DNA from: Bacteroidales bacterium
Lineage (GTDB): Bacteria > Bacteroidota > Bacteroidia > Bacteroidales > JAADGE01
Direction of reading: 5' to 3'
Assembly: GCA_021648725.1 (NCBI GenBank)
Contig: JAKISF010000002.1
Coordinates: 1-32,001 of the forward strand
DNA: 32,001 bases
Within the stretch, counting starts at the first letter, position 1; each line of letters starts with the position of its first letter. The position numbers were made by a program, and so were the translations under genes. Of the stretch, positions 7,913 through 28,017 are shown piece by piece. A model generated the notes under the pieces. That model did no database searches and was not told the origin of the DNA. It worked only from the letters and a program-made list of their open reading frames with translations.

Positions 7913-9409
7913 TTAATATAAGTCGCTGTGGCACTCAGAGCATGCTGCTTCTTTCCATGCCTCATCAATATTTATCGGGTGCTTAAATTCCAAGGAATTG
8001 TTTACGTCTGTTGATCGAAATAATGTATCTACTCCTTGCGAAAGTATTGTATGACAAAGGTTACAGTCATTTCTTATTTTTTTACCCTCGTCACTTACAT
8101 GAATTCCTGAATGGCATCTGAAACAACCTTTTGTTTCTTGATGTCCGATGTGATTAACGTACGATTTATGATAAACTTTCATTTCAGGAAAACTGTTTGT
8201 ACTGAATTCATCTTGGATTCCTGCAATTGCTTTTTCTATCAGCTCTTTTTTATTTTTATATATTTCAGGATGTACCTCTTTATAAAAATTTGTGATACTG
8301 TCATTAATAAAACTAAAGGTTGAATCATTAGTGCTAAATTGCACTTTTAAAACCTGTAATGCTATTTGTTTAATAAATTGCAAATCTTTCGGAATCTTCC
8401 CCTTATTTAAACCGTCATCAAGATAATCCGTAGGAGAATTAAATAAGTGAGAGGGTCTGTTATGGCAATCCATACAATCCATGGTTCTGGAATCAAGACT
8501 TAAAACTTCTTCATCTGCTAAAGGTTCATATTCATCTTTATATATTGTCACTTCACCTGTTTCAAGGTTTGTATATTTTACCCAAGGAATTGTATCTCTT
8601 TGGTTTGATCTTGCAATATACTCAATTTTAACATTAGGGTTTATGTGCCAATGTATTCCTTCACTATGTCCGTCAGTACTGATTGATGCCGCAGTTTTCA
8701 TCTTCAATGTTACATTACATTCGGTATTAAATGTATCTGCCAAAAAACTTCTGATATTAACCAGTCTGTTTGAATAGAACTTATTCGGCCAATGGCATTT
8801 TTCGCAAGTTTCTCTTGCAGGTCTTAAATTATGAATCGGTGTGGGAATCGGTTTCGGGTATTTTTTAAAAATAACAGAATATACTTGGTACATTCCTGAC
8901 AGTTTCGATTTAACATACCAATCTGCTCCTTCTCCTACATGACACTCAACACATTTTACATGTGCATGAGACGATTGTTGGTAGGCAGTATATTCCGGAC
9001 TCATAACCGAATGACAAAGAGTTCCGCAAAATTCATTTGATTCTGTATAGTGAAACGCTTTATAGCTGCCGATAGCACTTGCAAATAAAATTACGAATGT
9101 TCCGATTACAAAAATAATCATTGCATTTCTTGTTGTTCTGTTATTTAAGTCAATAACTTTCCATTTGTTTTCTGTTTTGTTGGTTCTTCTTTCTCGTCTT
9201 TTCTTCAAATACATACCCAACGGTATCATAAATAGTCCGACTATCATTATCATCGGTAAAACAATGTAAATAATCAAACCGATATATCCGCCGCTTTCCA
9301 TAAAGTATGTACTGACAATAAATAGAAACAAAATCAAGACAAAACAAAATGCGGCAATCAAACTGCCAAAAAAAGACATTGTGTTGTAATAGGAATTAGG
9401 TAATTTCAT
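7913..9409 (-). CDS. NapC/NirT-type 7-heme membrane cytochrome c
   Basis: 498 residues. Three hydrophobic segments precede the heme domain (about 12-36, 42-68 and 94-116); NapC/NirT proteins usually have one. The first heme site is CGTLCH at 128-133, a CX3CH motif followed by SVM. The methionine three residues after the histidine recalls the unusual first heme of NrfH. CVECH at 153-157 and CEKCH at 202-206 follow, with GADWYVKSKLSG and HNLRPARETCEKCHWP, which are typical of the family. Four more CXXCH motifs (CMDCH, CFRCH, CNLCH, CSECH) lie in a C-terminal extension, the last six residues from the end. NapC/NirT/CymA proteins oxidise menaquinol and pass electrons to periplasmic cytochromes; the same is inferred here. 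It is the last gene of the operon. No NrfA-like partner is present. Confidence 0.9.
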   Translation of the reverse strand: MKLPNSYYNTMSFFGSLIAAFCFVLILFLFIVSTYFMESGGYIGLIIYIVLPMIMIVGLFMIPLGMYLKKRRERRTNKTENKWKVIDLNNRTTRNAMIIFVIGTFVILFASAIGSYKAFHYTESNEFCGTLCHSVMSPEYTAYQQSSHAHVKCVECHVGEGADWYVKSKLSGMYQVYSVIFKKYPKPIPTPIHNLRPARETCEKCHWPNKFYSNRLVNIRSFLADTFNTECNVTLKMKTAASISTDGHSEGIHWHINPNVKIEYIARSNQRDTIPWVKYTNLETGEVTIYKDEYEPLADEEVLSLDSRTMDCMDCHNRPSHLFNSPTDYLDDGLNKGKIPKDLQFIKQIALQVLKVQFSTNDSTFSFINDSITNFYKEVHPEIYKNKKELIEKAIAGIQDEFSTNSFPEMKVYHKSYVNHIGHQETKGCFRCHSGIHVSDEGKKIRNDCNLCHTILSQGVDTLFRSTDVNNSLEFKHPINIDEAWKEAACSECHSDLY

Positions 9410-9445: not shown

Positions 9446-12217
9446 TTATCCGAATAACAGAGAGTAAATAATTAAAACTACAAGCACGGTTCCTGTTGCC
9501 AAGAATAAAAATCCGAAAGTTTTAATTACTCTCATCCGTAATTTTGAAAATTCTCTTTTAGTAACTAACTTATCAAGTTTCCCTTCTTTTTCTAATTCTT
9601 CATATTCTCTCGGTCTGTCTTCCTTATATTCTTCTGCCGGAACATGCCCGGTAAATATAACTGTATCCATAGGGAATGATTCAGGACGCAAATGTGTATT
9701 AAAAAAATGAATTGTGAAAATAAATCCTACTGCAAGTAAAGCTTCATCACTATGAATAATTTGTGCAACATTAATAAATTTACCCGGCAACAACTTTGAA
9801 AAGAATTCGGGAAACCATAACATCAACCCCGAAAACCCGATAACAGCGATACCCCAAAATACTGCCATATAATCAAATTTCTCCCAGTATGTCCATCTTC
9901 CGTATTTTGGTCTCGGTCCTTTACCGAAAAACCACTTAATTGATGCTGCAAAATCTTTAACATCTTGTTTATTAAACATCAATGAATTTTTTCCGAACAC
10001 AAAGTTTTTTATACTTTTTTTACGCGAAATTTTTTGTTTAATCATTGAATACAAATGAAACCCAAAATATCCAAAAGTTAAAAATGCACCAAATCTGTGT
10101 ATATTTCCGGCACCTTCAACTCCTCCGAAGTATTTAATTAAAAATTTTGCCCACTGCATATCAGAAAACTTTAACATCATACCCGTTAAAGCCAACAGAA
10201 TAAAACTGACAATAACAAAAATATGAGTAATGCTTTGAGCTCTTGTAAAGCGTCTGAAATATTTCACTTCACCGCTCGGATGTTGAGGGTGTAATTTTTT
10301 CTTGCGTCTTCTTTCTTTTAAAGACCTTGGTAACCAAAGTAATGTGTGAAGACCGAAAAATCCGAAAACACTTATAAGCAAAAATGTCATCGCCCAATAA
10401 GTATAATATAATAACGGAAACTTTTCTCGGTTGTAATGTGTTGCATGTGTTAAATATCCGACAAATTTTTCATTTGCATCTTCGTGACATTTTTGGCATG
10501 TTCTTACAATATTATTTTCCCCGACACTTGATTCCGGATTATCCATACTCAATATTAAGTGGGCATTATGACAATCAGAACACTTAGCTGACTTTTCATA
10601 TCCCAATTGATATGATTGTCCGTGATATGTATCTAAGTATGTTTCAGCTAACTCTTCATGACAAGAGCCGCATTGGTGCATAACTTCCGTCATGAACTGA
10701 TCTTTCCCGACATTTCTTATAACATGAGCAGAATGGCAATCTACACAAGTCGGAAATCTGTTTTCCCCTTCCCGGTTAATTGCATGATCACTTCTTATAT
10801 ATTTATCATAAATTCCTTTGTGGCATTTTGCACAAGTGGCAGGAACATTTTTCGGATTAACCGAAGAGCGTTCATCGGATGCACGAAGCATATAATGAGA
10901 AGAGTGACAATCTGTACAAACTGCACTTACCAAAAGTCCCTTTTCGGTAACCCCTCTTCCGTGAACACTTAACGAATAATCACTATAAGCTTCAACCTCG
11001 TTAAGATGAACATCTTTATCTGCTTTACCGTCTTTTTTGTGGCAATCTCCGCATAAAGTCGGTATTGATGTTCTGAATATAGGCGAAGTATCATCATTTT
11101 TTCCCAATATTTTATGACTGCCGTGACAATCAGTGCAATAAGGGGCATTTTCGTGTTTATTAAAATATGCCTGACCGTGTCCGCCGTCAAAATACAGATT
11201 AGATGCTTCGACATGACAACTTGAACAATCTATTTTGCCGACCGTTTCGCAGGGTCTGTCAAGATCCGGAGATACATCTGAGTGGCATTTTACACAAGTA
11301 ATGTTTTTATGCACTGAATACCTAACATCATCAATATCAACCTTTAACGATATTGTGTCTCCGTTTTCAATTTTGTGTATATCATCATTAGCATGGCATT
11401 TTAAACAAGACTGAACAGACATTGTTTCAACAATATTTTCAATTTTCACTTTGTGAGGCAAATGACAATCTGAACATGAAGGTATTTTACCCGGCTCTTC
11501 TTCCCACAACTTTTGATTAATTATTTTTTTATGAACATCTTCAATTCTTGCGTGACACTTCATACATGTTTTTGCAATGTTTTTTGATGAAATCGATGAA
11601 AAAGGATCTGTATGGGGTAATACCTGGTGGTTTCCATGGCAATCATTACAGGTTGCCGACACTATTAATCCGCTCTTAAACAAACCTTTACCGTGAATGT
11701 CCTGGCTGTAATTTTCAAGAATATTATGTTCGGTAATGTTATAAATTCTTGCAACCGGAGCATTTTCTCTGTGACACTTTCCGCACAATAAAGGAATATT
11801 CATTTTATATGTTCGGGATTTTGGATTTTTTTTATATAAAATATCATGTTTCCCGTGACATTCTTTACAATTTGGAGCATACATTTCGCCTCTTTTATAG
11901 GCTTGCCCGTGTAAGCCTGAATCAAAGTTGCGCATTGCTGATTTATGACAATCTCCGCAATTTACTTTCTTCAAGCGTTCGGGATGAGGAAAATCAACAG
12001 CTGCATCTTTATGACATGACACACATTTAACTTTTTTATGTACAGATCTAAGCAGTGTCTTGTCATTTACATACAGAGAAACTGTTCTTCCTTGCTTTAT
12101 TGTCGTTAAACCTTTATCTTCATGGCACATCATACAATCTTCATTAGATTGAGCCGATAAGTAAAAAGTAAATAACAAACTTACTATTGTAAGTACAATT
12201 TTTTTAAGATGCTGCAT
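9446..12217 (-). CDS. 19-heme cytochrome c fused to a membrane cytochrome b
   Basis: 923 residues: signal peptide (1-22, ending SAQ), periplasmic multiheme part (28-578) with 19 CXXCH motifs, then about six membrane helices from about residue 603. Helical histidines (about 624, 665, 707 and 721, plus later ones in the IHSDEALL and IHFFNTHLRP segments) are placed as in diheme b561/FdnI-type cytochromes. The periplasmic part is internally duplicated: residues about 50-275 align with about 290-520, heme for heme, for example SVHKKVKCVSCH with SVHKNITCVKCH and GLHGQAY with GGHGQAY. Its N-terminus is also close to that of the upstream gene product. The architecture is like Geobacter CbcL, an inner-membrane quinol oxidoreductase joining a diheme b domain to a multiheme c domain. 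A quinone-to-periplasm electron transfer role is inferred. Confidence 0.9.
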   Translation of the reverse strand: MQHLKKIVLTIVSLLFTFYLSAQSNEDCMMCHEDKGLTTIKQGRTVSLYVNDKTLLRSVHKKVKCVSCHKDAAVDFPHPERLKKVNCGDCHKSAMRNFDSGLHGQAYKRGEMYAPNCKECHGKHDILYKKNPKSRTYKMNIPLLCGKCHRENAPVARIYNITEHNILENYSQDIHGKGLFKSGLIVSATCNDCHGNHQVLPHTDPFSSISSKNIAKTCMKCHARIEDVHKKIINQKLWEEEPGKIPSCSDCHLPHKVKIENIVETMSVQSCLKCHANDDIHKIENGDTISLKVDIDDVRYSVHKNITCVKCHSDVSPDLDRPCETVGKIDCSSCHVEASNLYFDGGHGQAYFNKHENAPYCTDCHGSHKILGKNDDTSPIFRTSIPTLCGDCHKKDGKADKDVHLNEVEAYSDYSLSVHGRGVTEKGLLVSAVCTDCHSSHYMLRASDERSSVNPKNVPATCAKCHKGIYDKYIRSDHAINREGENRFPTCVDCHSAHVIRNVGKDQFMTEVMHQCGSCHEELAETYLDTYHGQSYQLGYEKSAKCSDCHNAHLILSMDNPESSVGENNIVRTCQKCHEDANEKFVGYLTHATHYNREKFPLLYYTYWAMTFLLISVFGFFGLHTLLWLPRSLKERRRKKKLHPQHPSGEVKYFRRFTRAQSITHIFVIVSFILLALTGMMLKFSDMQWAKFLIKYFGGVEGAGNIHRFGAFLTFGYFGFHLYSMIKQKISRKKSIKNFVFGKNSLMFNKQDVKDFAASIKWFFGKGPRPKYGRWTYWEKFDYMAVFWGIAVIGFSGLMLWFPEFFSKLLPGKFINVAQIIHSDEALLAVGFIFTIHFFNTHLRPESFPMDTVIFTGHVPAEEYKEDRPREYEELEKEGKLDKLVTKREFSKLRMRVIKTFGFLFLATGTVLVVLIIYSLLFG

Positions 12218-12243: not shown

Positions 12244-14694
12244 TTATTTTTGTTTGTTTTCTTCAATGTATATTCTTAAATCTTCATCGTTATCTATTTC
12301 TGTTTTAATAAATTCATCGGTATTTGCTCCTGATTTTTCAACAGCTTTTATAAATAAGTTTCCGAAATGACTCAGTTGCTTTTCTGTTCTTTTTCCCTCT
12401 TTTAGTTCTACCCATTCAAGCATAACCTTTTTATATTTTAATTTGTGTTCATCTTTAAAATGGATGATGGTCATTTTTCCGTCAACACATGTAAAGCTCA
12501 TAGGATATTCTTGCGGTCTGAACATTACAAAGAACCAATGCCAAACAATAATTGCCAGTGTTGCCAAAATTGCTTCATAAAAGTGAACAATTTCGCTTAC
12601 CTTAATAACCCAAAGCGGTGCCCAGTCGCCTATTACAGTAGGAAACCATAAAATAAATCCGGTTACAGCCATTACAATAGTTCCCCAAATCAATGCCCAA
12701 TATTCTGCTTTTTCAATATAATTATAGTTGTCAAATTCGGGGTGTTTTTTTCTTAGGTGTAAGTGGTATGAAATATTTTGTATTGCGTGTTTAATGTCAG
12801 AAACTTTAAGCAGCATGCCTCTTAAAACATCTCTGCCCCTCGCTGTTATTCCTAAATATACAACATGCCATATTGAAAGACCTATCATAACTAATGCAGA
12901 TATTCTGTGTGTCCATTGTCTTGCAACTTCATTTAAACCAAAATAGCTTAAGCCTTCTGCCCACCAACTATCGGGGTATTTTAGTTGAAACCCCGTAATT
13001 GCAAGAATACTGAATGAAAGAAGTAAAATTATATGTTGTATCAGTTCATTGCGTGTAAATCTCGGTATTCTTATTGCTTTATTAATTTCTTTTCTTTTCT
13101 CACGAAGGTCATATATAAATATAATCAAATTATGAACAGCCATTCCTCCGATAACAATGATAATTAACCAAAAATATATGGTTTCAACTATATCTTCAAT
13201 AAATTTAGCAGAACTGTCTTCTTCGCTTGAGTGTGAATAACTTTTAGAAAATACATCAGAAGCTCCTTCGTGACATTTCCTGCAGGTTTCAACAACATTT
13301 CCTTCATGTATAGTTGATTCTTCATGGTATTTAGGTAAAATTTTATGAACTCCGTGACAATCTATACACATTGCCGCATCATCATCTCCTCGCATTGTTG
13401 CCAATCCGTGGTAGCTGTCTTGATAGTTTGCAGCACTTTCTTCGTCTATTCCGAAGCGTTCTGACAGTAGGAGGTTTTGATGACACTCTAAGCAAGTTTG
13501 TTCTTGCAGTTTTTTTATCTCCTCCTTTTTATGAAGGTTATTTATTTCTTTAATGCAATGCTCACTATGGCAATCATTACACGTGGGGGATTCTCCGACT
13601 CCTTTTTTTACCGACATCCAATGAATAGATTGTTCGTATTCTTTTTGTATTTCTTCGTGACATTTTCCGCATGATTTTGATACGCCGATACTTGAAATAG
13701 TTGAACCCGGTTGAATCCTGTTTTTAATATTATGAACACCGTGACATGAAGTACAACCGGCGGCATCCATTCGCCCCATTTCTACGAGTTTGGCATGAAC
13801 AGAAGTTGAATATAATTTTGCAGGGTGTTTAACTGATGAATGATGTTTTTCGGAGAAAGAATCGTCATCATGGCATTCTCCGCAAGTTTTTATCAGATTT
13901 CTTGAGCTTACCTTACTGTTTTCGGAAGCTACCTTTGTTATTTCGTGGGAACCGTGACAATTCCAACAATTTGCAGCCTCAAACATTCCTTCTTTAATAG
14001 ATATTCCGTGAATGCTTTCTTTGTGTTCTGATGCAATTGACCCGTGACAAAGATAGCAGTCGGCACTAGGGCGTTCATTGTCTGTTTCGTGTCCTTTTAA
14101 ATTGTTGACAACATGACCATGGCAATTTGCACATTCCAGATTAGCATGAACAGATTTTTCAAGCATTAACTTATAGTCTGTTTCATTATGGCATTCAACA
14201 CAGCCTTTATTTATGCCGCTTGAAATATGGTATGCAGAAGATAAAACTTTTGTTTCGTGGCATTTTCCGCAAAATTGCTTTGATTTATTCTTTACATTAG
14301 CCGGTTTCTTTACATTATGAGTATTATGGCAATCTTTACAAGTGGGCGGGTTTTTACAAGTTTTTTTCATAAGTGTATTATGAATGTCGTTGTTAACTTG
14401 TTCAGAATAGTCGGTATGACAGCTTCCGCAACTTACTTTTTTTAATTTTTCCGAATGAGGAAACTCACTGCCTGCCGCATCCTTATGGCAAGAAACACAT
14501 TCTACTTTACTGTGTGCAGATTTCTGCAATAAAGCTTTATTTACATACATTGATACAGTTTTTCCGTATCTTTCTGCAGTTAAATCTTTATCCTCATGAC
14601 ACATCAAACAATCATCATTTGATTGTGCAAGGATAATTACCGAGTAGTAGAAAAAACAGATTGTTACTGCAATTAATTTTTTGAAGTTTAACAT
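12244..14694 (-). CDS. 16-heme cytochrome c fused to a membrane cytochrome b
   Basis: 816 residues: signal peptide (1-24, ending LAQ), 16 CXXCH motifs between about residues 29 and 475, then five membrane helices from about residue 503, and a charged C-terminal tail of about 100 residues. The helices carry histidines suited to b-heme ligation (MAVHNLII, LIQHIILL, WTHRISAL, SIWHVVYL, IVHFYEAI, VWHWFF). The first 90 residues are strongly similar to the 19-heme protein encoded next (SNDDCLMCHEDKDLT against SNEDCMMCHEDKGLT), but the middle differs and is not obviously duplicated. Like that protein it resembles CbcL-type quinol:cytochrome oxidoreductases. Two adjacent paralogues suggest two quinone-reactive modules tuned to different potentials or directions. 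That is inference. Confidence 0.9.
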   Translation of the reverse strand: MLNFKKLIAVTICFFYYSVIILAQSNDDCLMCHEDKDLTAERYGKTVSMYVNKALLQKSAHSKVECVSCHKDAAGSEFPHSEKLKKVSCGSCHTDYSEQVNNDIHNTLMKKTCKNPPTCKDCHNTHNVKKPANVKNKSKQFCGKCHETKVLSSAYHISSGINKGCVECHNETDYKLMLEKSVHANLECANCHGHVVNNLKGHETDNERPSADCYLCHGSIASEHKESIHGISIKEGMFEAANCWNCHGSHEITKVASENSKVSSRNLIKTCGECHDDDSFSEKHHSSVKHPAKLYSTSVHAKLVEMGRMDAAGCTSCHGVHNIKNRIQPGSTISSIGVSKSCGKCHEEIQKEYEQSIHWMSVKKGVGESPTCNDCHSEHCIKEINNLHKKEEIKKLQEQTCLECHQNLLLSERFGIDEESAANYQDSYHGLATMRGDDDAAMCIDCHGVHKILPKYHEESTIHEGNVVETCRKCHEGASDVFSKSYSHSSEEDSSAKFIEDIVETIYFWLIIIVIGGMAVHNLIIFIYDLREKRKEINKAIRIPRFTRNELIQHIILLLSFSILAITGFQLKYPDSWWAEGLSYFGLNEVARQWTHRISALVMIGLSIWHVVYLGITARGRDVLRGMLLKVSDIKHAIQNISYHLHLRKKHPEFDNYNYIEKAEYWALIWGTIVMAVTGFILWFPTVIGDWAPLWVIKVSEIVHFYEAILATLAIIVWHWFFVMFRPQEYPMSFTCVDGKMTIIHFKDEHKLKYKKVMLEWVELKEGKRTEKQLSHFGNLFIKAVEKSGANTDEFIKTEIDNDEDLRIYIEENKQK

Positions 14695-14727: not shown

Positions 14728-16887
14728 CTACTTTCTTATAAGCTCGAATTCTGCCCTTCTGTTTTCTGCTCTTCCGTCTTCGGTTTCATTTGTGTTTACA
14801 GGGTTTGACTCTCCGTATGCTTTTATTTTTATTCTTTTAGGTAATATTCCTTTTGCTGTTAATATTTTTTTTACCGCCGTTGCTCGTTTTTTGGAAAGTT
14901 CGATATTATAATCAGTACTTCCCACGCTGTCAGTATATCCGTTTATTTGAATAGTTACGGCAGGGTATTTATTCATAAAATCTGTTAATTTATCTATCTC
15001 ATTGTTTATGTTTTTTTCAAATTCTGTTTTTCCGAACTTAAAGAATACCTTTAACGGTAACATTCTGTTAAATGCTTCAACTTCTGAAATTATGGTTTCT
15101 TCGAGATTGTTTGTATTTGATACTTCTGCGGAATCTTTGGTAATGTTTAAAGTTGTTGAATCGATTTGGGTTATATTATCATTTGTTAACGTATCTTTTT
15201 TAATTTCTACATTATCAACAATAACAGAATCTTTAATGGTAACTGTAATTGTTGTATCATTTTTGACTATATTATCGCTTTTATGTGTTATTGTATCTTT
15301 TTCGGTTGTAATTGAGTCAATTTCAGTTATATTTTCAATAGTACTTATTGCAACGGTATCTTTTTTAATTTCTACATTATCAACAATAACAGAATCTTTA
15401 ATGATAACTGCAACTGTTGTGTCATTTTTAACGGAACTGTTTTCTATATTTTCAACAACATTTATCGTGTCAGCAACATTGTTAATATGATTTGTAACAG
15501 AATCCGTAACATTGATACTGTCATTTTCAGGAATTTTTACTCGTGTGTATTTTTTTTCTGTGTGGCATCCTGTTCTGCATGATGCACCGTTTTCTTTTAG
15601 AATGAAATTCATGGGCATATTCCACGTTCCGAAATTAACTCTCTTTTTTATCAGAAACTTATTTTTTGAGGCATGCACATCGTGGCAAATGTTACAAGTT
15701 CTTCCTTTGTCGCCGTTTATATGAGTAAAGTGTAGATTTTGCTCACCGTTTCGAAAGTTTGTTGCCGTGCTTGAAAATTCTTTTTCCAACAAATCGGTAT
15801 CATGGCAATTAAAACAAAGTTCAAATGATTCGACACTTGCTTTTGTATATTCACCTTCCGGAAAAGCACCGTTCAATAAAGCCGTATTATTCGAAGCATG
15901 GGGGTTATGGCAAACAGCACATCCGTCTTCAATCGGAGCATGTTTATATTTAGCATTATTGAGTTTTTCTTTAATGTTTTCAATTTGTTTTGTTTCTGTG
16001 TCTATTTTTTTATTATGGCAATTTAAACATAAAACATCCTGTTCTTCTTTTAAAATTTTATTATGAGAAGATGAATGCGGAGAATGGCATTTTTGACACT
16101 CAATCTTACTTCCCGACACTTTGTGTATGTTTTTTGATTCGTTTATTTGCGAACTTATATCATCATGACAAGTAAAGCATAATTCCGGAGTTGAAGAATT
16201 CAGCAAAAATGATTCTTTTGAACTGTGAGGATTGTGACAGTTTGAGCAGTCATCGTCAAACGGTGCATGTAGAAATTCTGCTTGTTTTTCGGCTTCGATA
16301 TTATCGTGACAAGTTGCACATATTTTAGATTTGTCTTCAACTAAAAGAAAAGAATTATCTGATTGGTGAGCATCGTGGCATGACAAGCATCCGTCTAATT
16401 CAATCGGTGCATGAATGTTTGTATTCTCGCTTAAATCAATATCATGGCATTCTAAACAAAGTTTTGAACTCTCGGATTCTGCTAACATATACTTGTATTC
16501 TGCTCCGTGCGGTGAGTGACAAGAGACACATTCACCTCCCTCAACGGGTGTATGTATGTTTTTTTTGTCATTTTTTTGTTCGTGACACATGTAACATAAA
16601 TCCGGCATTTTTTCTGCCAGGATAAAGCCTTTTTCTTTTACCCTGGGATGTTTATTCCCTGTACTTTGATGACAGGTTTCACAATCGTCTGTAGCCGGTG
16701 CATGTAAAACTTTATGATTAATAATATCATTGTGGCAAAATGAACATTCTCTTTCATTTACGGAATTATATGAATAACCGGAATATGTATGTGTACTGCC
16801 TAATGATTTAATTTTTGATATTCTCGGTAAATAGCTTAGACTTACGGCTAAAATTGCAATCGGTATTACTATTATATATCTTTTCAT
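14728..16887 (-). CDS. 15-heme cytochrome c fused to an OmpA peptidoglycan-binding domain
   Basis: 719 residues. A hydrophobic N-terminus (4-20) lacks a clear cleavage site and may be a signal peptide or an inner-membrane anchor. Fourteen CXXCH motifs (48-411) in doubled-CXXCH repeats are followed by a fifteenth heme site with CX3CH spacing, CRTGCH at 437-442. A Thr/Asp/Asn-rich linker (about 450-605) contains a 55-residue repeat unit in two copies. Residues about 612-719 are an OmpA-like C-terminal domain, with FFKFGKTEF, INGYTDSVGSTDYN, LSKKRA and YGESNP plus a final GRAENRRAEF. Asp653 and Arg668 have the 15-residue spacing of the diaminopimelate-binding pair of OmpA domains. The protein should therefore be tethered to the cell wall inside the periplasm. 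The heme part is a paralogue of the upstream gene product, which lacks the OmpA domain. Confidence 0.93.
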   Translation of the reverse strand: MKRYIIVIPIAILAVSLSYLPRISKIKSLGSTHTYSGYSYNSVNERECSFCHNDIINHKVLHAPATDDCETCHQSTGNKHPRVKEKGFILAEKMPDLCYMCHEQKNDKKNIHTPVEGGECVSCHSPHGAEYKYMLAESESSKLCLECHDIDLSENTNIHAPIELDGCLSCHDAHQSDNSFLLVEDKSKICATCHDNIEAEKQAEFLHAPFDDDCSNCHNPHSSKESFLLNSSTPELCFTCHDDISSQINESKNIHKVSGSKIECQKCHSPHSSSHNKILKEEQDVLCLNCHNKKIDTETKQIENIKEKLNNAKYKHAPIEDGCAVCHNPHASNNTALLNGAFPEGEYTKASVESFELCFNCHDTDLLEKEFSSTATNFRNGEQNLHFTHINGDKGRTCNICHDVHASKNKFLIKKRVNFGTWNMPMNFILKENGASCRTGCHTEKKYTRVKIPENDSINVTDSVTNHINNVADTINVVENIENSSVKNDTTVAVIIKDSVIVDNVEIKKDTVAISTIENITEIDSITTEKDTITHKSDNIVKNDTTITVTIKDSVIVDNVEIKKDTLTNDNITQIDSTTLNITKDSAEVSNTNNLEETIISEVEAFNRMLPLKVFFKFGKTEFEKNINNEIDKLTDFMNKYPAVTIQINGYTDSVGSTDYNIELSKKRATAVKKILTAKGILPKRIKIKAYGESNPVNTNETEDGRAENRRAEFELIRK
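15191..15433. repeat. Two 165-bp-spaced direct repeats in the cytochrome-OmpA linker
   Basis: A stretch of about 78 nt starting at 15191 recurs at 15356, offset by 165 bp; the first 48 nt are identical or nearly so. Both copies are in frame and encode the KDSVIVDNVEIKKDT segment of the linker between the heme and OmpA domains. The high nucleotide identity points to a recent duplication or ongoing length change of the linker. Confidence 0.85.
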
Positions 16888-16914: not shown

Positions 16915-18219
16915 TTATCGTCTATAAGATTTTTCAGCATGGCAACCCGGAAAACAAGAACCTCCGGCAGTTGTAACTTTATAGTTCATTTGCATTTCCC
17001 AAGATCCGAATTTGCTGACTTTTCGTATAAGGTGTTCATTCCCTGATGCGTGAACATCATGGCACAAACTACAGCTTCGTCCTTTTTTACCTTTAACATG
17101 AAGATAGTGCATGTTTGTTTCTCCGTTTCTGAAGTTCGTTGCATTTGTTGTTTTTTCTTTTTCAAGTAAATCTTGTTCGTGACATTCAAAGCATAAAGAA
17201 AAGTTTTCAACTTCGGCATTTTCATATTTTTTTCTCGGATATTTACCTATTAATAGTGATTCATATTCCGAGAAATGTGGTTTATGACAAGTTGCACAAC
17301 CGTCAAACTCTATTGCTCCGTGAACAGACACGCCGGTTTTTATTTTTCTGTCTATGTTTTCTATTGTTCTTGTTTCAGTTTTTATTTTTTTATTATGACA
17401 GCCTAAGCACAGATTCTTTTTATCATTTTTTAGCATTGAACTATAAGATGATGCGTGAGGAGAGTGGCAGTTTATACAATTTTTTTGGTCTAAAGCAACA
17501 GAATGTGATGAAACAGACTTCTCAAAATTTTCTTTAAATCCGTCATGACAATTAAAGCAGATGTCAGGTGTTTTTTCCGACATTAAATAATTTTCGGAAG
17601 AGCTGTGTGGTTTATGGCAGTTACCACAATCATCGTCAAAAGGATAATGTATGTTTTCTAAGGAAGCTTCTTTTTTTTCATTTTCATGACAAGAAAAGCA
17701 TAATTGCGGCTTAGTTTCTTTCAAAAAATAACTGTTATCTGATTGGTGAGGGTCGTGGCAATTTTGACAATCTCCACTTTTAACCGGGGCATGCATTTTG
17801 TCTGTTTCGGGTATTTTAAAATCATGACATCTCATGCAAGTTTCTTGATTCGGACTTTTTTTAATCATTGCCGGATTTGACGACCCGTGGGGAGAGTGGC
17901 ACATCATACAATAACCGTCGGTAACAGGCGGATGAACATTTTTCTTTGTATTTTTCGGATCATGGCACATATAACAAAGATCGGGAATGCTTTCGGTTAA
18001 ATAAAATTCATTGCCGACAGAATTAGGATGATCTCCTTCTTTTTTTTGATGGCAATTGTCACAAGCATCCTCTACTACAGGGTGTAGATATTCATATTTA
18101 AGTAAATCGCCGTGACAATCTGCACATGTTTTTTCTTGGTTGCTTTGTCCGAATGCACTTGATATATAAGAAAAACTTACAGTTATTAAAATCAAGCATA
18201 TTAAATTTTTATTAAGCAT
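16915..18219 (-). CDS. 15-heme periplasmic cytochrome c, doubled-CXXCH type
   Basis: 434 residues with a signal peptide (1-24, ending AFGQ). It has fourteen CXXCH motifs and a final CX3CH site, CFPGCH, near the C-terminus. Pairs of hemes recur in units such as DDDCGNCHKPHSSSEN followed by a PDICFNCHD half, typical of doubled-CXXCH (cytochrome c3-like) repeats. Heme order, spacing and the final CX3CH site all match the following gene product, so the two are tandem paralogues; this one has no linker or OmpA domain. No lipobox or membrane helix is visible, so it should be a soluble periplasmic or porin-inserted electron carrier. By position next to the barrel gene it is the best candidate for the MtrA-like component inserted in the barrel. 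Confidence 0.92.
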   Translation of the reverse strand: MLNKNLICLILITVSFSYISSAFGQSNQEKTCADCHGDLLKYEYLHPVVEDACDNCHQKKEGDHPNSVGNEFYLTESIPDLCYMCHDPKNTKKNVHPPVTDGYCMMCHSPHGSSNPAMIKKSPNQETCMRCHDFKIPETDKMHAPVKSGDCQNCHDPHQSDNSYFLKETKPQLCFSCHENEKKEASLENIHYPFDDDCGNCHKPHSSSENYLMSEKTPDICFNCHDGFKENFEKSVSSHSVALDQKNCINCHSPHASSYSSMLKNDKKNLCLGCHNKKIKTETRTIENIDRKIKTGVSVHGAIEFDGCATCHKPHFSEYESLLIGKYPRKKYENAEVENFSLCFECHEQDLLEKEKTTNATNFRNGETNMHYLHVKGKKGRSCSLCHDVHASGNEHLIRKVSKFGSWEMQMNYKVTTAGGSCFPGCHAEKSYRR

Positions 18220-18226
18220 CTTATTT

Positions 18227-20209
18227 CTAAAATTTTCGGATTAACCTAAAATAAACCCCGTTATAATTATTAATTTGTCCTAAGAAATCTCTGTTATATT
18301 TTTCCAAACCGAAAGTTAGGTACAACTGTCGAATTTTAGATGTTACTTCAAACCTTGCGGTTAATAAATCTAAATTAATTCCGTTTCCGACTTGTTTACG
18401 GTAACCTAAATTTAAACTTGCTTTTGTAAGGTCAAAAATTCGATAAGTGGCTTTTCCTGATATATCTGCGTAAATATGGTTAATTGAATCATAAACCAAA
18501 TAATAATCGCGATAATTTGCATTTAATGATAGTATGACCCTGTCGTTTATAGTTTTATTGGCAGTTGCATAAAATCTTATCATTTCATACGGAATAATTG
18601 TGCTGTTATAATTGTCTTTTTCAACACCGGCGGTCACATAATTAATATCAAATCTAAATCCGTATTTATATTGCACATAATAGTTAAGGCTCAAAAGATC
18701 TGCATCTGTTAAATTAATGAAGTTTTGATTGTTTACTTTAAAATAGACTTCAAACATTCTTTTTAACACGCTAATACTTGCAGAAAATTTATTAAAATTA
18801 GCATCATAGCTGTATGTTTCAGGTTGATTAACTATGTAATCAACTAAAACTGCATCTCCGTTTGCTATTTGCCCGCCGGGAAATCTTTGAATTTCAATGT
18901 AATTGTTTCTTTCAATTATTGTATAATCCAAATCTTCCTGATAAATTATTGCTCCGTTTATATCTTTCACAACAATTGTTGCCCGGTTTATAAAGGGTCT
19001 GTCCAACAAAGTAATTTCTCCGTCAGTTAGTATGTGATTTTCGTTTATTATTTGAAGTGTAACCGGGTCGCTGTTGTTAATTCGCTTGTCTCGTCTATAA
19101 TTGTAGGACAAATTTAAACGCCCTTTTAACGGAATTTTTTTCGTATAGTAAATGTTTCCTCCGAAATATTGATCGCTTTCATCAAAAACTGTATTGATTG
19201 TATTTCGATATTCATAAAATATACTTGTATTTAAACTTAAAAATAACTTATGCCCGAGAGAGCCGTTAATAATGTTCGTTCTGTTTTCATGGGGCTCTTG
19301 AAGCTCTTGGAGTTCTTGGGTTATTCTGTTAAAGTTATAGTTACTTTGAAATATAAATTGGTACGGCAGTTTTAAAAGTAAACTTTCATTTACGTTAAAA
19401 CTATTAAAATTAATTGTTCCTTTTTGGTTATGTGCTGCAATTCTTGAGCGAAAACTATAGTTTTGTTTTTGGTCAAAATAGAAGTTATCGTTAAGAGTTA
19501 TTTTATCGGAAAAAGTTTCTGATTGAAATATATTGTAGTTGTTAAATATAAATTTATCATGACTATATACTAAGTCATGTTTATCATTATTATAAAAAGT
19601 TTTTGATGCTCTTCCTGTAAAATTTAGTTGATTCATATCAGACATTCTGCCTATTTCTGTTTCTTCCTGATTCCATTTTGTGTGGTTATAACTGAAATTC
19701 AGCGGAACGACCTTATTTGCAAACCTTAAAACGGCTCCCCAATTTTTTCTGTTTGTTTTTATATTTGTCAGGTTTTCTCGGTTACTGTATGTTTGGCTAA
19801 AATCGGCATGAGTAAGTAATGATACGGGCTTCTGACTGAATATATTTGTTTTAATATTCAATCTTTTCATTGTTCTTGTTTCGGCTTGGTCGGGAATTAC
19901 AATAAAATCTTCTTTAATAAAATCCGGGTTAAATTCGGCTTCAATGTCTAACTTCAATAAATTAGGATGCCAAAAATAACTCTTTGATCGAACAAGTGCT
20001 CCTACTGAAAAACGTGAGCTGTTTTGAGTTTCACTTAAATAGTTCCTTAAAATTTTTTGTGTTCTGTAATGTCCGAACGTGCTCAGTTCTCCGGAAAAAG
20101 AAGTCGGTACCCAAAAAGAAAATCTGTCAGAAGCAAAAAATGTTCTTTCTTGAGAAAATCCCCAACTTGTAATTAGAGTTAACAATATTATGATTACCGT
20201 TTTTTTCAA
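18227..20209 (-). CDS. Outer-membrane beta-barrel, putative porin of the electron conduit
   Basis: 660 residues: signal peptide (1-19, ending FSQ), then a chain of amphipathic beta-strands ending in a terminal phenylalanine (RLIRKF), the usual signal for barrel assembly. Its size is close to the MtrB/PioB/OmbB porins that sheathe multiheme cytochromes. I do not claim sequence homology, because these porins diverge strongly. It contains no cysteine at all, so the N-terminal CXXC of MtrB is absent. At about residues 380-465 there is a likely globular insert with the segment DYTIIERNNYIEIQRFPGG and then GDAVLVDYIV, which looks like a periplasmic or surface domain interrupting the barrel. Placed between the 9-heme lipoprotein and the 15-heme cytochrome genes, with 13-nt and 7-nt gaps, it fits the porin role. 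Confidence 0.8.
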   Translation of the reverse strand: MKKTVIIILLTLITSWGFSQERTFFASDRFSFWVPTSFSGELSTFGHYRTQKILRNYLSETQNSSRFSVGALVRSKSYFWHPNLLKLDIEAEFNPDFIKEDFIVIPDQAETRTMKRLNIKTNIFSQKPVSLLTHADFSQTYSNRENLTNIKTNRKNWGAVLRFANKVVPLNFSYNHTKWNQEETEIGRMSDMNQLNFTGRASKTFYNNDKHDLVYSHDKFIFNNYNIFQSETFSDKITLNDNFYFDQKQNYSFRSRIAAHNQKGTINFNSFNVNESLLLKLPYQFIFQSNYNFNRITQELQELQEPHENRTNIINGSLGHKLFLSLNTSIFYEYRNTINTVFDESDQYFGGNIYYTKKIPLKGRLNLSYNYRRDKRINNSDPVTLQIINENHILTDGEITLLDRPFINRATIVVKDINGAIIYQEDLDYTIIERNNYIEIQRFPGGQIANGDAVLVDYIVNQPETYSYDANFNKFSASISVLKRMFEVYFKVNNQNFINLTDADLLSLNYYVQYKYGFRFDINYVTAGVEKDNYNSTIIPYEMIRFYATANKTINDRVILSLNANYRDYYLVYDSINHIYADISGKATYRIFDLTKASLNLGYRKQVGNGINLDLLTARFEVTSKIRQLYLTFGLEKYNRDFLGQINNYNGVYFRLIRKF

Positions 20210-20222
20210 AATAACATTTTAA

Positions 20223-21041
20223 TTAATTTAAAATATATCTATTATCCCCTCCGTGCGGATTATGACATTCCGTACAATCAAAATCTTCAATACCTTCGTG
20301 ATTTTCATTTTTAAAAACTGAACTTTTATTATGACACTTTAAACACATTTCTTGACCGGTCAGCAATAATTTATACTCTTTTTCTGAACTGTGATTATCA
20401 TGACACGAGTTGCAAAAGCCACTGTCGACAGGACCGTGCAAATGTTTATATGTGTCATTAAAATCATCATGACATTTGTAACATGTGCCTTCTTTTAAGA
20501 AAAATTTGTTTTCTTCACCATGTGGATTATGACATTCCGTGCAATTTGAATTATCAATCAGTGAGTGCACATCATTATATGCAAGTTGCTCGGAACTGTG
20601 GCAATAAAAACATAACTCCTCGTTTTCTCTTTTAACTAATTTATCAAATTTAGACTGATGGGGGTTATGGCACGATGTGCATTCACTTAAAGCAGGTCCG
20701 TGAACAACAGCATAGTTGTCTTCAAAGCTTTCATGACAAGAATAACATAAGCCGGGTTGTTTTTCTGTTGCCATACTGTTATCATGACAACTGTTACAGC
20801 TTTTTGTTTTGTATGGTTGATGGATGTTTATGGTCGGAATATTCTCTGCAATATCCAAGATTCCTGTACTGTCAATTTGAACAACAGAGTCAAGCCGGTT
20901 TGTTGTGTTATCATAATCCGGGTCAGGTACTCCGTCAAAAACAAACGATAATACCTTATAGGTTGTTTCTGTTGAACAAGCTGCTATTAACAATACAAAT
21001 AAAAAGATTGAAAGCTTTATCTTATTTTTATATTTCGGCAT
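20223..21041 (-). CDS. 9-heme cytochrome c lipoprotein
   Basis: 272 residues. The N-terminus ends in a lipobox, LLIAAC with Cys22, so the protein should be lipidated. Residues 23-75 form a heme-free spacer that includes SFVFDGVPDPDYD. Then come nine CXXCH motifs to the C-terminus in doubled units, for example ECTSCHNPHQS with a following LCFYCH half. No peptidoglycan or membrane domain follows. As the only lipidated multiheme protein of the operon, and adjacent to the barrel gene, it is the candidate outer-membrane cytochrome, on either the inner or the outer leaflet. The sequence does not settle which side it faces; a run of acidic residues directly after the cysteine, the usual Bacteroidota surface-export signal, is not evident. 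Confidence 0.9.
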   Translation of the reverse strand: MPKYKNKIKLSIFLFVLLIAACSTETTYKVLSFVFDGVPDPDYDNTTNRLDSVVQIDSTGILDIAENIPTINIHQPYKTKSCNSCHDNSMATEKQPGLCYSCHESFEDNYAVVHGPALSECTSCHNPHQSKFDKLVKRENEELCFYCHSSEQLAYNDVHSLIDNSNCTECHNPHGEENKFFLKEGTCYKCHDDFNDTYKHLHGPVDSGFCNSCHDNHSSEKEYKLLLTGQEMCLKCHNKSSVFKNENHEGIEDFDCTECHNPHGGDNRYILN

Positions 21042-21066: not shown

Positions 21067-22149
21067 TTACTCTTTTAATTCAACTCTTCCGTATATATTC
21101 AGCTTATAAGGACCATATTGATTAGTAACCAAAATTATATATTTCAGTTTAAACTTAGGGTCTGTAAATTTTTCAAAAAAATGTACATCTTCATAGTTAA
21201 TATCAATTCCTGCCGGCATATACATATATCCTTTTCCGCTTTGTCCGCCGGCAGGATTACCGAAAAACATCAATACATGGTTGTCTTTATTGAATATCTG
21301 AGCATTTGCAAATGCTGCATCAATTACATATAAATTATCTTCATTATCAACAGCAATTCCTTTTGGTCTGGCAAATTGTCCGGGTTTTAAACCTTGTGCT
21401 CCAATTGTGCTTAAATAATTTCCTTCTTTTGAAAACTTTTTCACATTAAAAGAGCCGAAGTCACTTACAAAAACATTGTTGTTTGTTACAAAAACATTTC
21501 TTGGTTGGTAAAGGAATGCGTCATCTCCTTTTTTTGCATCAGGAAAAGAAAATAAAAATTTATAACTTGTATCATTTTGAAAAACATCAATTGTATGGTT
21601 TTTCATATTTGCAACCCAAATTTTATTGTCCGATACAAATACATCAAGAGGCTTGAAGCTTTCAGAAGCTCCGAAAGCGTTAACAAAATTTCCGTTTACA
21701 TCAAAAACTACAATTTCTTTTCTTCCTGAATCAGCAACATACAAATAGCCTTTTTCGTCAACATGACAATTTACCGGAATAACCAACTTTCCGTTACCTT
21801 CCGGGAGAAAATAGTCAAATGTTTTTTTGTTTAGGTCAATAATTTCCAGCCCTTTAATACCAATATCGCAAACGTATATTTTCCCGAAACGAATATCTAC
21901 GCCAAATGCGTTTTTTATTGTTTTCGATTCCTCTTTTCCTAAAACAAAACTTTTAAATTTTGATTGCCTTCCTTCAATGTCAAAAGAGTTTCCGATACTT
22001 GTTAAAAATTGAATTCGTGCTGTATCCGGTGCTGAGGGAAAAACTATTACTTTTTCCGGAATTGTTGTTGTCTGAAATATTTTACACGAACTGATAAGGA
22101 CTAAAATAATACTTGCCGATAAAAATAAATTAAGCCGTATTTGTTTCAT
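21067..22149 (-). CDS. NHL-repeat beta-propeller lipoprotein
   Basis: 360 residues from the chosen start. An in-frame ATG seven codons upstream (22170) exists, but starting at 22149 gives a normal lipoprotein signal (MKQIRLNLF to LVLISSC, Cys22), and a promoter-like box at 22184-22191 leaves almost no leader for the upstream ATG. The mature part has repeated blades of NHL type, for example GYLYVADSGRKEIVVFDVNG, and later KPGQFARPKGIAVDNEDNLY. It forms a probable six-bladed propeller with no catalytic motif. It is the first gene of the operon. A related propeller gene (28007-29020) heads the second cytochrome operon, so a structural or docking role with cytochromes is likely. The exact function is unknown. 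Confidence 0.88.
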   Translation of the reverse strand: MKQIRLNLFLSASIILVLISSCKIFQTTTIPEKVIVFPSAPDTARIQFLTSIGNSFDIEGRQSKFKSFVLGKEESKTIKNAFGVDIRFGKIYVCDIGIKGLEIIDLNKKTFDYFLPEGNGKLVIPVNCHVDEKGYLYVADSGRKEIVVFDVNGNFVNAFGASESFKPLDVFVSDNKIWVANMKNHTIDVFQNDTSYKFLFSFPDAKKGDDAFLYQPRNVFVTNNNVFVSDFGSFNVKKFSKEGNYLSTIGAQGLKPGQFARPKGIAVDNEDNLYVIDAAFANAQIFNKDNHVLMFFGNPAGGQSGKGYMYMPAGIDINYEDVHFFEKFTDPKFKLKYIILVTNQYGPYKLNIYGRVELKE

Positions 22150-22183
22150 TATAAACAATTTTGAAAACAATTATTAGAGTACA

Positions 22184-22321: not shown

Positions 22322-22954
22322 TTATTTATTGTGACAAGTTAAGCAAAGCTCACTACTGATATTTGTTTTAAGTAATAAACCGGGAATACCTGCATAATTA
22401 TGAACATCATGGCATGATCCGCATTGAAGAGTTCCGCTGAACAGCATATCTGTAGTAATTGTTCCTCCTGCGGGTAATCCACTTAATTGTGTTGTCGGAT
22501 CATAAAGTTCAGGATCTGTAAATGTACCGTCCCAAGCAAAAGATACGGGATGGTCATCACTTAAATCTGTTCCTACTAATGCAGTTCCTGTCATTGCATC
22601 TGCAGAAGTTCCGTAATCGTGATCATTAAGGTTTACAGTACCGTCATGGCAACTTAAACAATATAAAGAAACTCCTGAAGGTTGTCCGGGAACAGCTTCC
22701 ATTGTATTGAAAGGACTTGTATAAATTGTAAATACTGCTGTTGACAATGTGTGACTCCAAAGAGGTCCGCTTGCTGCTTGCGAAGCATTGTGAGGTGTAT
22801 GACAAGGTCCGCACATTTTGTTTGAAGCCATTGTATTCCAAGCATCATTTCCTAAGCCGGCTCCATCGTTAAAATCGTGAGCAGAGCCGGTTAATTGTCC
22901 GAAACTCATTAAACCGATTGTAACAAAGAATAATAAAATACTTAATTTTTTCAT
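22322..22954 (-). CDS. Secreted tetraheme cytochrome c
   Basis: 210 residues with a signal peptide (1-20, ending SFGQ). Four CXXCH motifs: CGPCH, CLSCH, CGSCH and CLTCH, the last just before the C-terminus. The layout HTPHNA, then EAVPGQPSGVSLYCLSCHDG, then DLSDDHPVSF closely matches the first four-heme module of the 12-heme protein encoded at 26317-28017. This looks like a free-standing copy of that module. It has its own terminator and 380 nt of non-coding DNA upstream, so it is likely transcribed alone and could be strongly expressed. A soluble periplasmic or secreted electron shuttle is inferred. Confidence 0.9.
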   Translation of the reverse strand: MKKLSILLFFVTIGLMSFGQLTGSAHDFNDGAGLGNDAWNTMASNKMCGPCHTPHNASQAASGPLWSHTLSTAVFTIYTSPFNTMEAVPGQPSGVSLYCLSCHDGTVNLNDHDYGTSADAMTGTALVGTDLSDDHPVSFAWDGTFTDPELYDPTTQLSGLPAGGTITTDMLFSGTLQCGSCHDVHNYAGIPGLLLKTNISSELCLTCHNK

Positions 22955-24705: not shown

Positions 24706-24734
24706 TTACTTTCTGTTATTGTGAAATAAAGTTT

Positions 24735-24742
24735 CAAATATA
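24735..24742 (-). promoter_or_regulatory. Candidate internal promoter (-7 box) for the response regulator
   Basis: The minus strand reads TATATTTG, a full TAnnTTTG match, 30 nt before the ATG at 24705 in the 122-nt gap after the kinase gene. The matching -33 region is only a T-run. The regulator may thus be transcribed both with and without the kinase gene. Confidence 0.35.
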
Positions 24743-24827
24743 ATCTTTTTGTATTGTTTTAAAAAAACTTCTGTTTTATTTAGGACAGAAAGAAGTATTA
24801 GGGGATAAGGGAGCGTTATTTTTTATT

Positions 24828-26316: not shown

Positions 26317-28017
26317 CTATTTATAAGATTTTGGATTGTGAACTTTTCCGTGACAAGTTAAATAACATGTTCCGCTGAATAATCCAGTATCTTCAAAGCG
26401 GAGAATACCGTCAGCAGGCGAAACAATACTTACATTAAAGTTAATTAAATTTGAATTATTAACAGAATTACCCTGAAAACTGCTCACTCCGTGGGAATCA
26501 TGACAAACACTGCATGATGTGTTTAAATCAACAATATGTTTGTTATGGACTTTATCTTGAAACTCATTCGGATATTCACTTATTATCGAATTTCTGTCGT
26601 GACACTGATAACACAACTCATAAGACTGATAGGATTCTATAGTATTATTAAATGTTGAGTAGTTATACTTCAAAATATGAGGGTATATTGAGCCATGCGG
26701 TCCGGCTGCTGAGCTTTTACCATTGCTTGCATGACAATCAGTACAATAAATAATACTTGACTCAGAATAGGGGGCTACCAAACTCGGAACGTCCGGATTA
26801 ACTCCTGTTCCTGTTACAGGATGAAATGACGGGTTTAAAGAGTTAAACTCTAACCTTACATTATTCTGTTCTATTTGTCTGGTTATTGAACTTGCAGATT
26901 TGTTCGGGCTGTCTGCATGACATCTGTAACATATTTCATATTCAAATTGTACCGGATTTACTTTATTACCGTCTTGATTAACTCCGACGGTTCCTTTATT
27001 GAAACCTTTAACAAAGGGAGCTTTGCCGGGGGAGTTATCAGATCCGTGGGGATTATGACAATCTTCACATTCTACATGCATATTTAAAGTTAGAGCGTCT
27101 TCGTTAGGATCATGGTCTCTATTATATGCATAAACATTATGAGAATACGGTTTATTTATTTGTATTTGAATGTTTTGTGAAGCAACATTTCCGTTATGGC
27201 AATCCAAACAATTACTTTCTTCTTTTTGATACTTCATAAGACGTTCATTTCCTCCTGCCGTATGAGTATTATGACAATTTTCACAAGCATTTTCTGCAAC
27301 AGTCGTATATTTTGTATGAAACCAAGGGTTTTTCCCTGAACCGTTCCATTTTGCAGTAGAATTTCTGTGTCCGGACTCGAACCAATAATCTTTATCATGG
27401 CAGCTTAAACAAAGCTCAGAATATCTGTTCGACCGAACAAGAAAATTGTCAAACTTATTATTGTGCGGGTCGTGGCAAGATATACATTGTACTTTTCCGT
27501 TTTCAAGAGCAACCGGATGTGTTAAGTTCATGGGGTCTCTTAGTTCGCCGTCTGTATATGCTAAAGCTGAAGTATATTCAAATGAAATCATATGATCATC
27601 TGATAAATCTGTTGTAAGATTATTTTTGCTTCTTTTGAATGAGTTTGCACCTTCGCTAAAATCAATCTCCTTTTTTTTACTTAAAACACTTCCGAGTGCA
27701 ATTGTTCCGTCGTGGCATGAAAGACAAAGAATCGAAGAGCCGTCAGGTTGCCCCGGAACTGCCTGAATTGTAGAGCTGTTATATAAAATATAATTTAACC
27801 CGGGTGTTTTTTTATTCCATAAAGGTGTTTTTGGGTTACTGCTGTGCGAAGTGTGACAAAAAATACATATTTCAGATTCTCCCGTTGATTTAACATTCCC
27901 TATTCCGCTTACGCTCAAATTATGTTTAGAGTTTACAATTGATTGTGAAAAAGAAGGTTTTGTATTAATAATGCAAAACAATAATATTACATAAATAAGC
28001 ACTTTTCTATTTACCAT
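26317..28017 (-). CDS. 12-heme cytochrome c
   Basis: 566 residues from the chosen start. The open frame extends 54 codons further up (to 28179), but those codons lie inside the preceding NHL gene and encode no export signal. Starting at 28017 gives a proper signal peptide (MVNRKVLIYVILLF to SFSQ) and an 11-nt overlap with the NHL gene stop, typical of translational coupling. It has eleven CXXCH motifs plus a last CX3CH site, CYLTCH, 15 residues from the end. The first four hemes form a module shared with the tetraheme protein encoded at 22322-22954 (AVPGQPDGSS, DLSDDHMISF). The remainder has doubled-CXXCH features such as CEDCHNPHGSDNS. No membrane helix or lipobox is visible. Soluble periplasmic or secreted electron carrier, partner unknown. 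Confidence 0.9.
   Translation of the reverse strand: MVNRKVLIYVILLFCIINTKPSFSQSIVNSKHNLSVSGIGNVKSTGESEICIFCHTSHSSNPKTPLWNKKTPGLNYILYNSSTIQAVPGQPDGSSILCLSCHDGTIALGSVLSKKKEIDFSEGANSFKRSKNNLTTDLSDDHMISFEYTSALAYTDGELRDPMNLTHPVALENGKVQCISCHDPHNNKFDNFLVRSNRYSELCLSCHDKDYWFESGHRNSTAKWNGSGKNPWFHTKYTTVAENACENCHNTHTAGGNERLMKYQKEESNCLDCHNGNVASQNIQIQINKPYSHNVYAYNRDHDPNEDALTLNMHVECEDCHNPHGSDNSPGKAPFVKGFNKGTVGVNQDGNKVNPVQFEYEICYRCHADSPNKSASSITRQIEQNNVRLEFNSLNPSFHPVTGTGVNPDVPSLVAPYSESSIIYCTDCHASNGKSSAAGPHGSIYPHILKYNYSTFNNTIESYQSYELCYQCHDRNSIISEYPNEFQDKVHNKHIVDLNTSCSVCHDSHGVSSFQGNSVNNSNLINFNVSIVSPADGILRFEDTGLFSGTCYLTCHGKVHNPKSYK

Follow-up and report, generated by a model that had tools for sequence, protein, structure and literature searches.

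A multiheme cytochrome fused to an OmpA domain in a candidate route for extracellular electron transfer in Bacteroidales

Cytochrome gene cluster

We analyzed a stretch of 32,001 nucleotides (hereafter the window), positions 1 to 32,001 of contig JAKISF010000002.1 in the genome assembly GCA_021648725.1 of a Bacteroidales bacterium. Eight genes between 7913 and 22170 run in the same direction with gaps of 7-36 bp, and further genes of interest lie beside them:

7913..9409, minus strand: NapC/NrfH-like cytochrome with 6 CXXCH (Pfam and NCBI families, motif count)
9446..12217, minus strand: 19-CXXCH protein with a C-terminal cytochrome b561 domain (Pfam, motif count)
12244..14694, minus strand: 16-CXXCH protein with a C-terminal cytochrome b561 domain (Pfam, motif count)
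14728..16887, minus strand: fused multiheme cytochrome with a C-terminal OmpA domain, 719 aa (ORF list, Pfam)
16915..18219, minus strand: paralogue without an OmpA domain, 49% identical, 14 CXXCH and 1 CX3CH (Pfam, comparison, motif count)
18227..20209, minus strand: probable outer-membrane beta-barrel, 660 aa (weak structure model, fold search)
20223..21041, minus strand: 9-heme protein with a stretch like 6r2q_A and, by our own reading, a lipobox (PDB sequence match, motif count)
21067..22170, minus strand: NHL-repeat protein with a lipobox by our own reading (ORF list, Pfam)
22322..22954, minus strand: tetraheme cytochrome like 7tfs (6.5e-23) and also related to 9yuq (PDB sequence match)
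26317..28179, minus strand: protein with 11 CXXCH and a CX3CH, residues 64-263 like 7tfs (8.9e-28; PDB sequence match)
28007..29020, minus strand: beta-propeller-like (NHL-type) protein (own reading of repeats)

All 34 matches to the doubled-CXXCH profile PF09699 (E 0.001) in the 3.24-Mb genome fell within the 11-40 kb region of this contig. The tetraheme cytochrome at 22322-22954, by its likeness to 7tfs (which we take to be OmcE), is a candidate filament subunit in Bacteroidales, and a 4-heme ORF recurs at its position in ten related loci. For the second OmcE-like gene, at 26317-28179, the start as listed, a TTG, overlaps the gene upstream and a later ATG is likelier. By our own reading, 23335-26315, also on the minus strand, encodes a response regulator of the sigma-54 type together with a histidine kinase, a possible heme-c redox sensor with one CXXCH in its sensor part; similar regulator and kinase pairs were seen in several related loci. 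Just beyond the window (G000:C2, L104:127-8633, plus strand) we found ORFs of 1974 aa (26 CXXCH) and 852 aa (19 CXXCH).

Judged by ORF size and heme count, a run of 4-heme, 350-400-aa, 5-9-heme, and ~660-aa proteins followed by a terminal cytochrome was detected in genomes G006, G008, G011, G082, G119, G120, G138, G191, G230, and G297, and the terminal cytochrome came directly after the ~660-aa barrel-like gene in the loci holding both. Same-looking b561 ORFs follow the cytochrome in G004, G006, G008, and G011, with single b561-type ORFs in G189 (16 CXXCH) and, separated by a gap, in G191 (19 CXXCH); no b561 proteins were present in the stretches read of G082, G119, G120, G138, G215, G230, G297, and G318. 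Because the b561 genes are absent from many of the loci read, the link to b561 proteins is not a general one.

Probable barrel and MtrA-like proteins

The predicted structure of the 660-aa protein had a mean pLDDT of 34.8, with long strands in its last 150 residues, where block means were 58-86. Three of 671 Foldseek matches to this model reached E 0.001 or better, these being entries of one porin with a TM score of 0.19 by query, and many of the further matches were also porins. Four of the five members of this group of barrel-like proteins end in Phe, and the fifth ends two residues later. The five members had no relevant Pfam match up to E 10, and the barrel-like protein had no PDB sequence match. 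Described conduit barrels comprise several families, with four models used, according to the available text of PMC7399161. From the model and the fold search, we consider the 660-aa protein a probable outer-membrane beta-barrel.

Of the features expected of a porin-cytochrome (Pcc) system, a probable barrel gene, so called from a weak model, lies beside multiheme cytochrome genes, and the window encodes OmcE-like proteins as candidate outer-surface cytochromes. The best reading of the cluster is that it may form a porin-cytochrome route for extracellular electron transfer. The 9-heme protein matched 6r2q_A at 64.2 bits, and the cytochrome half of the fused protein and the paralogue did so at 59.8 and 54.5 bits, the MtrA-like match being driven partly by heme motifs; this chain, labelled cystathionine beta-synthase in the PDB copy used, is presumably MtrA of the MtrCAB conduit. 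The match suggests that the 9-heme protein may be a candidate barrel plug. The protein in this position carries just 5 CXXCH in some relatives, perhaps too few for a plug.

Architecture of the fused cytochrome

The fused protein joins a heme half, a linker, and an OmpA domain in one chain, and its parts were located as follows:

16828..16878, minus strand: hydrophobic stretch, residues 4-20, a signal peptide or membrane anchor (hydropathy, own reading)
15562..16746, minus strand: 15-heme part, residues 48-442, 14 CXXCH and 1 CX3CH (Pfam, motif scan)
15562..15579, minus strand: CX3CH site CRTGCH, residues 437-442, terminal in related cytochromes too (motif scan, relatives)
15055..15561, minus strand: linker of about 169 residues (443-611; motif scan, uniform cut)
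15352..15429, minus strand: linker repeat copy 1, residues 487-512 (repeat search)
15187..15264, minus strand: linker repeat copy 2, residues 542-567 (repeat search)
14758..15045, minus strand: OmpA domain PF00691, residues 615-710 (Pfam, PDB sequence matches)
14884..14931, minus strand: Asp653 to Arg668, putative diaminopimelate-binding pair (motif, PMC7947798)

The original prediction, made from the letters of the window, placed this gene correctly at 14728-16887, where the ORF lies on the minus strand, and Pfam and motif searches agree with its account of hemes, linker, and a full C-terminal OmpA domain in a single chain. Its fifteen heme sites are borne out as 14 CXXCH, spread from residue 48 to residue 398, plus one CX3CH (CRTGCH, residue 437); in 5000 shuffled versions of the protein, CXXCH occurred 0.06 times on average and at most twice. 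PF09699 matched the heme half in repeated stretches at E 1e-71. The predicted structure of the whole fused protein was of low confidence (mean pLDDT 33).

At the N-terminus there is one hydrophobic stretch, at about residues 4-20, with no obvious cleavage site by our own reading, and cleavage after Ser16 is possible. By the same kind of reading, some of the closest fused relatives likewise have a hydrophobic N-terminus with no obvious cleavage site, and the fused proteins of other families at L090 and L109 carry ordinary-looking cleavable signals.

The OmpA domain is complete by profile, with PF00691 matching at E 1.6e-23 and 83.3 bits against a curated cut-off of 27.2 and covering 98 of 98 profile positions. 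Asp653 and Arg668 do stand 15 residues apart, the spacing of the diaminopimelate-binding pair that had been proposed for them, and the available text of PMC7947798 describes the same pair, D142/R157, in the wall-binding protein Pba (PA1041). All six fused proteins read whole keep the pair. Among 35 OmpA domains gathered from the loci (E 1e-6 or better, at least 75 residues, identical sequences removed), 31 had D/R at this spacing and three had E/K, with the pattern unreadable in one; a pair this common points to an ordinary domain of the wall-binding type. Among solved structures, the OmpA half was best matched by OprF (5u1h, 2.8e-20) and PA0833 (6jfw), whose domains we take to be wall-binding. 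The MurE of the source genome carries the motif DNPR, presumably indicating a diaminopimelate-type wall, so the ligand of the OmpA domain should be present. From these likenesses we infer that the OmpA domain of the fused cytochrome would grip peptidoglycan.

Selection on the domain was estimated in two pairs of fused proteins, the second of which has dS above 1 and hence a rougher dN/dS. The OmpA domain gave dN/dS of 0.224 (G011 vs G006) and 0.178 (G082 vs G1046), and the cytochrome part 0.125 and 0.192 in the same pairs; the OmpA domain is under purifying selection in both. The linker, in a comparable piece and in the sole pair measured for it (G011 vs G006), gave 0.41. Its repeat, present as two copies of ~26 residues each, 55 residues apart, was correctly noticed in the original prediction, and the length then put at about 150 residues measured about 169. 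By the same cut, linkers in the six whole fusions were 169, 175, 112, 66, 50, and 46 aa long. A linker that is long, fast-changing, and variable (46-175 aa) makes a leash likelier than a rigid mount, and an OmpA domain maintained where present beside a linker free to change is the pattern of a tether. The description of the cytochrome as bolted to the wall was therefore too strong.

Occurrence of the fusion

A strong cytochrome match was found in 6 of the 21 genomes of the window's family, three of the 21 being 71-77% complete or less. The whole fusion is present in three of these (G000, which is the window genome, G011, and G004). In G006, one contig stops within the linker and a second opens with the same 87 bp and continues through the OmpA part into the two genes after it; this break (G006:C82 end and C22 start; L117, L116) coincides with the linker repeat, and such fusions may be under-counted in MAGs where repeat and contig break coincide. 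G013 has a second copy truncated by the contig end, and G008 has a single, unfused copy (L101:10915-12285) with a tail resembling the beginning of the linker. One scan of genome contigs used two peptide patterns from this cytochrome family.

In an order-level sample of 393 genomes, the cytochrome was detected at E 1e-60 in 22: four held whole fusions (G000, G191, G082, G1046), one a split fusion (G006), and one a copy cut short (G1047). The other 16 were unfused in the stretches read, which for most meant ~1.5 kb of flank only and for six a wider region. The cytochrome matched in four of seven genomes of the G082 family, where the fusion occurs in G082 and G1046 and the copy able to show it in G1045 and G1047 ends at a contig end, and in one of 17 genomes of the G191 family, G191 itself. 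Besides the window's own match, the class and phylum samples gave matches at E 1e-60 in 5 of 394 and 3 of 394 genomes, and no fusion was found in the loci read from these.

An assembly or frame error near 15500 is refuted as the source of the fusion. That two genes were joined by such an error has a negligible chance of being true: in G006 contigs do break inside the linker, at the 87-bp repeat, but the fusion is read in one frame in the window genome and five others, independent assemblies that include two separately named ones (JAJRUH, DZBS).

Evolution of the cytochrome

The number of CXXCH ranges from 7 to 26 among members of the cytochrome family, to which a 5-CXXCH protein of G985 may also belong. 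Family copies read to their end all close with CX3CH; the 38-row cytochrome tree, for which rows were selected by a terminal CX3CH and at least 5 CXXCH, is for that reason no gauge of how general this ending is. Unfused relatives at L091:9439-11640 and L108:307-2505 carry 25 and 26 CXXCH, and since the L091 copy looks internally duplicated, heme number may vary by blocks in the family. A phylum-level relative (L102:1472-3031) has 11 CXXCH and a CX3CH; the 110 residues that follow its last heme, where no OmpA pattern was found, are perhaps another kind of C-terminal attachment.

A 17-row tree of the cytochromes, for which the tool warned that long branches meet, united the fused paralogues from the window's family in a clade (98/94) that also takes in the unfused G008 copy and the cut-off G013 copy. 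The G008 copy falls with those of the window and of G013 (97/97), and holding the fused clade together without it was disfavoured (p-AU 0.024). On this placement the G008 copy reads as a loss, having probably shed its OmpA domain. Forcing the fused clade of the window's family together with the G191 protein was not rejected (p-AU 0.40); among the OmpA domains themselves, the four fused ones of the window's family group (99/97) and join the other three fused domains weakly (71/77), so that a single origin of all fusions is neither shown nor rejected. On the 38-row tree, the fused or unfused label requires at least four changes, two of them forced by well-supported branches. By this count, the OmpA domain has come or gone more than once, with gains and losses indistinguishable. 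The fused gene adjoins an unfused paralogue, 16 of the 22 order-level genomes with the cytochrome are unfused in the stretches read, and one close relative has apparently lost the domain. This suggests that the periplasmic cytochrome can do without its OmpA part, and that tethering to the wall is an optional addition to it which the pathway does not need.

A proposed leashed cytochrome and its alternatives

We suggest, with rather better than even confidence, that the fused protein is the periplasmic multiheme partner of an outer-membrane porin-cytochrome conduit and that its OmpA domain leashes it to peptidoglycan. The b561/multiheme and NapC-like proteins would take electrons from the quinol pool and hand them to the 15-heme cytochrome and its unfused paralogue, from which they would cross the beta-barrel complex and reach OmcE-like cytochromes on the outside; both this flow and its order are read from gene content. 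The OmpA domain would grip the diaminopimelate of the wall and so keep the cytochrome at the wall beneath the conduit, with the linker of 46-175 residues letting it move within reach of its partners. With regard to the original prediction, the parts that hold are membership of an electron conduit and the ability to hold to the wall, which sequence, conservation, and gene neighbourhood support; a fixed relay, like bolting, exceeds the evidence.

The rival explanations differ in where the cytochrome sits and in what the OmpA domain does. The cytochrome could instead plug the barrel itself, with its OmpA domain tying the conduit, and any filament, to the wall in the manner of OmpA-type proteins associated with porins, a structural anchor that we consider unlikely though the main rival. 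It would fit G191, in which no copy but the fused one was found and this one directly follows the barrel, and G008, in which a sole copy from the fused clade is apparently the barrel's sole partner; a fused sole copy in the one and an unfused sole copy in the other also make the two forms seem to share a task. However, a C-terminal wall-binding domain means that the C-terminus must be in the periplasm, and the C-terminus of MtrA faces outward in its barrel, so a plug oriented like MtrA would point the OmpA domain away from the wall. The fused protein would then have to dock below the barrel or sit in it reversed. The neighbouring 9-heme protein scores slightly higher on 6r2q_A and may be the plug instead, and it is the combination of this candidate and the MtrA orientation that leads us to prefer the leashed periplasmic carrier.

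A trans-periplasmic wire, fixed by an uncleaved N-terminal helix in the inner membrane at one end and by the OmpA domain at the wall at the other, seems improbable. The window protein and some of its closest fused relatives do lack an obvious cleavage site by our own reading, but the signals at L090 and L109 look cleavable, a site after Ser16 may exist in the window protein as well, and so long a linker suits a rigid wire poorly. We see little more likelihood in the broader proposal of a wall-tethered wire that would run from inner membrane to peptidoglycan, spanning the periplasm as a fixed path and mechanically rooting an OmcE-like filament system in Bacteroidales. Less probable again is that the OmpA domain is a protein-protein module or a passenger that does not bind peptidoglycan. 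The repeated coming or going of the domain on the 38-row tree would suit this reading, but the Asp/Arg pair retained in all six whole fusions, the purifying selection in both pairs measured, and nearest solved relatives of wall-binding kinds all argue against it.

Relation to known systems

The fused cytochrome resembles the MtrA/DmsE/GSU2203 type in its doubled CXXCH hemes, its barrel-like neighbour gene, and its sequence matches to 6r2q_A, TIGR03508, and NF041028, with scores below the curated cut-offs for DmsE (TIGR03508, 143.3 vs 192.2 bits) and GSU2203 (NF041028, 115.7 vs 325). It differs from that type in having 15 heme sites rather than 10, along with a long linker and an OmpA domain. 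An electron-transfer protein with a C-terminal OmpA-like domain is also found in the photosystem I PsaB chain 7f4v_aB (match at 751-862 of 872), presumably from Gloeobacter; PsaB, in contrast, is an integral photosystem subunit without c hemes. The complete PF00691 with an Asp/Arg pair 15 residues apart is shared with OmpA, Pal, and PA1041 (Pba; PMC7947798, available text), where the domain sits on a barrel or lipid anchor, whereas here it sits on a multiheme cytochrome.

Multiheme cytochromes with S-layer domains are described from ANME archaea (PMC9012536, as far as its text was available), and these are alike in being fused to a domain that holds the cytochrome in an envelope layer. There, however, the layer is S-layer protein instead of peptidoglycan, and the ANME protein is proposed to conduct electrons through it. 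In the same phylum as the window genome, a Bacteroidetes MAG from an anode has a cluster of seven genes, six for multiheme cytochromes and one for a barrel, that was called uncharacterized (PMC8258643, main text); its gene content is similar, by description and not by sequence, and the words "OmpA" and "peptidoglycan" are absent from that main text. Within the available text of two further papers, OmpA/OmpF porin homologues of other bacteria come up in PMC5539420, and OmpA appears in PMC13390432 only as a signal peptide. A search of titles and the starts of abstracts, in which some queries came back empty and subscription papers lay largely outside, found no description of a multiheme-OmpA fusion, in line with the original prediction, which knew of no characterized protein built this way. 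Electron-transfer proteins held by envelope domains thus have parallels, and the multiheme-OmpA pairing was not found described.

An open question of extracellular electron transfer is how electrons get through the periplasm and its peptidoglycan mesh, and the periplasmic carriers of Geobacter are described as freely diffusing (PMC12307469, available text). Since this conserved cytochrome carries a putative wall-binding domain of its own, tethering could be tested by deleting that single domain, and the cluster places a whole candidate electron pathway in the little-studied Bacteroidales.
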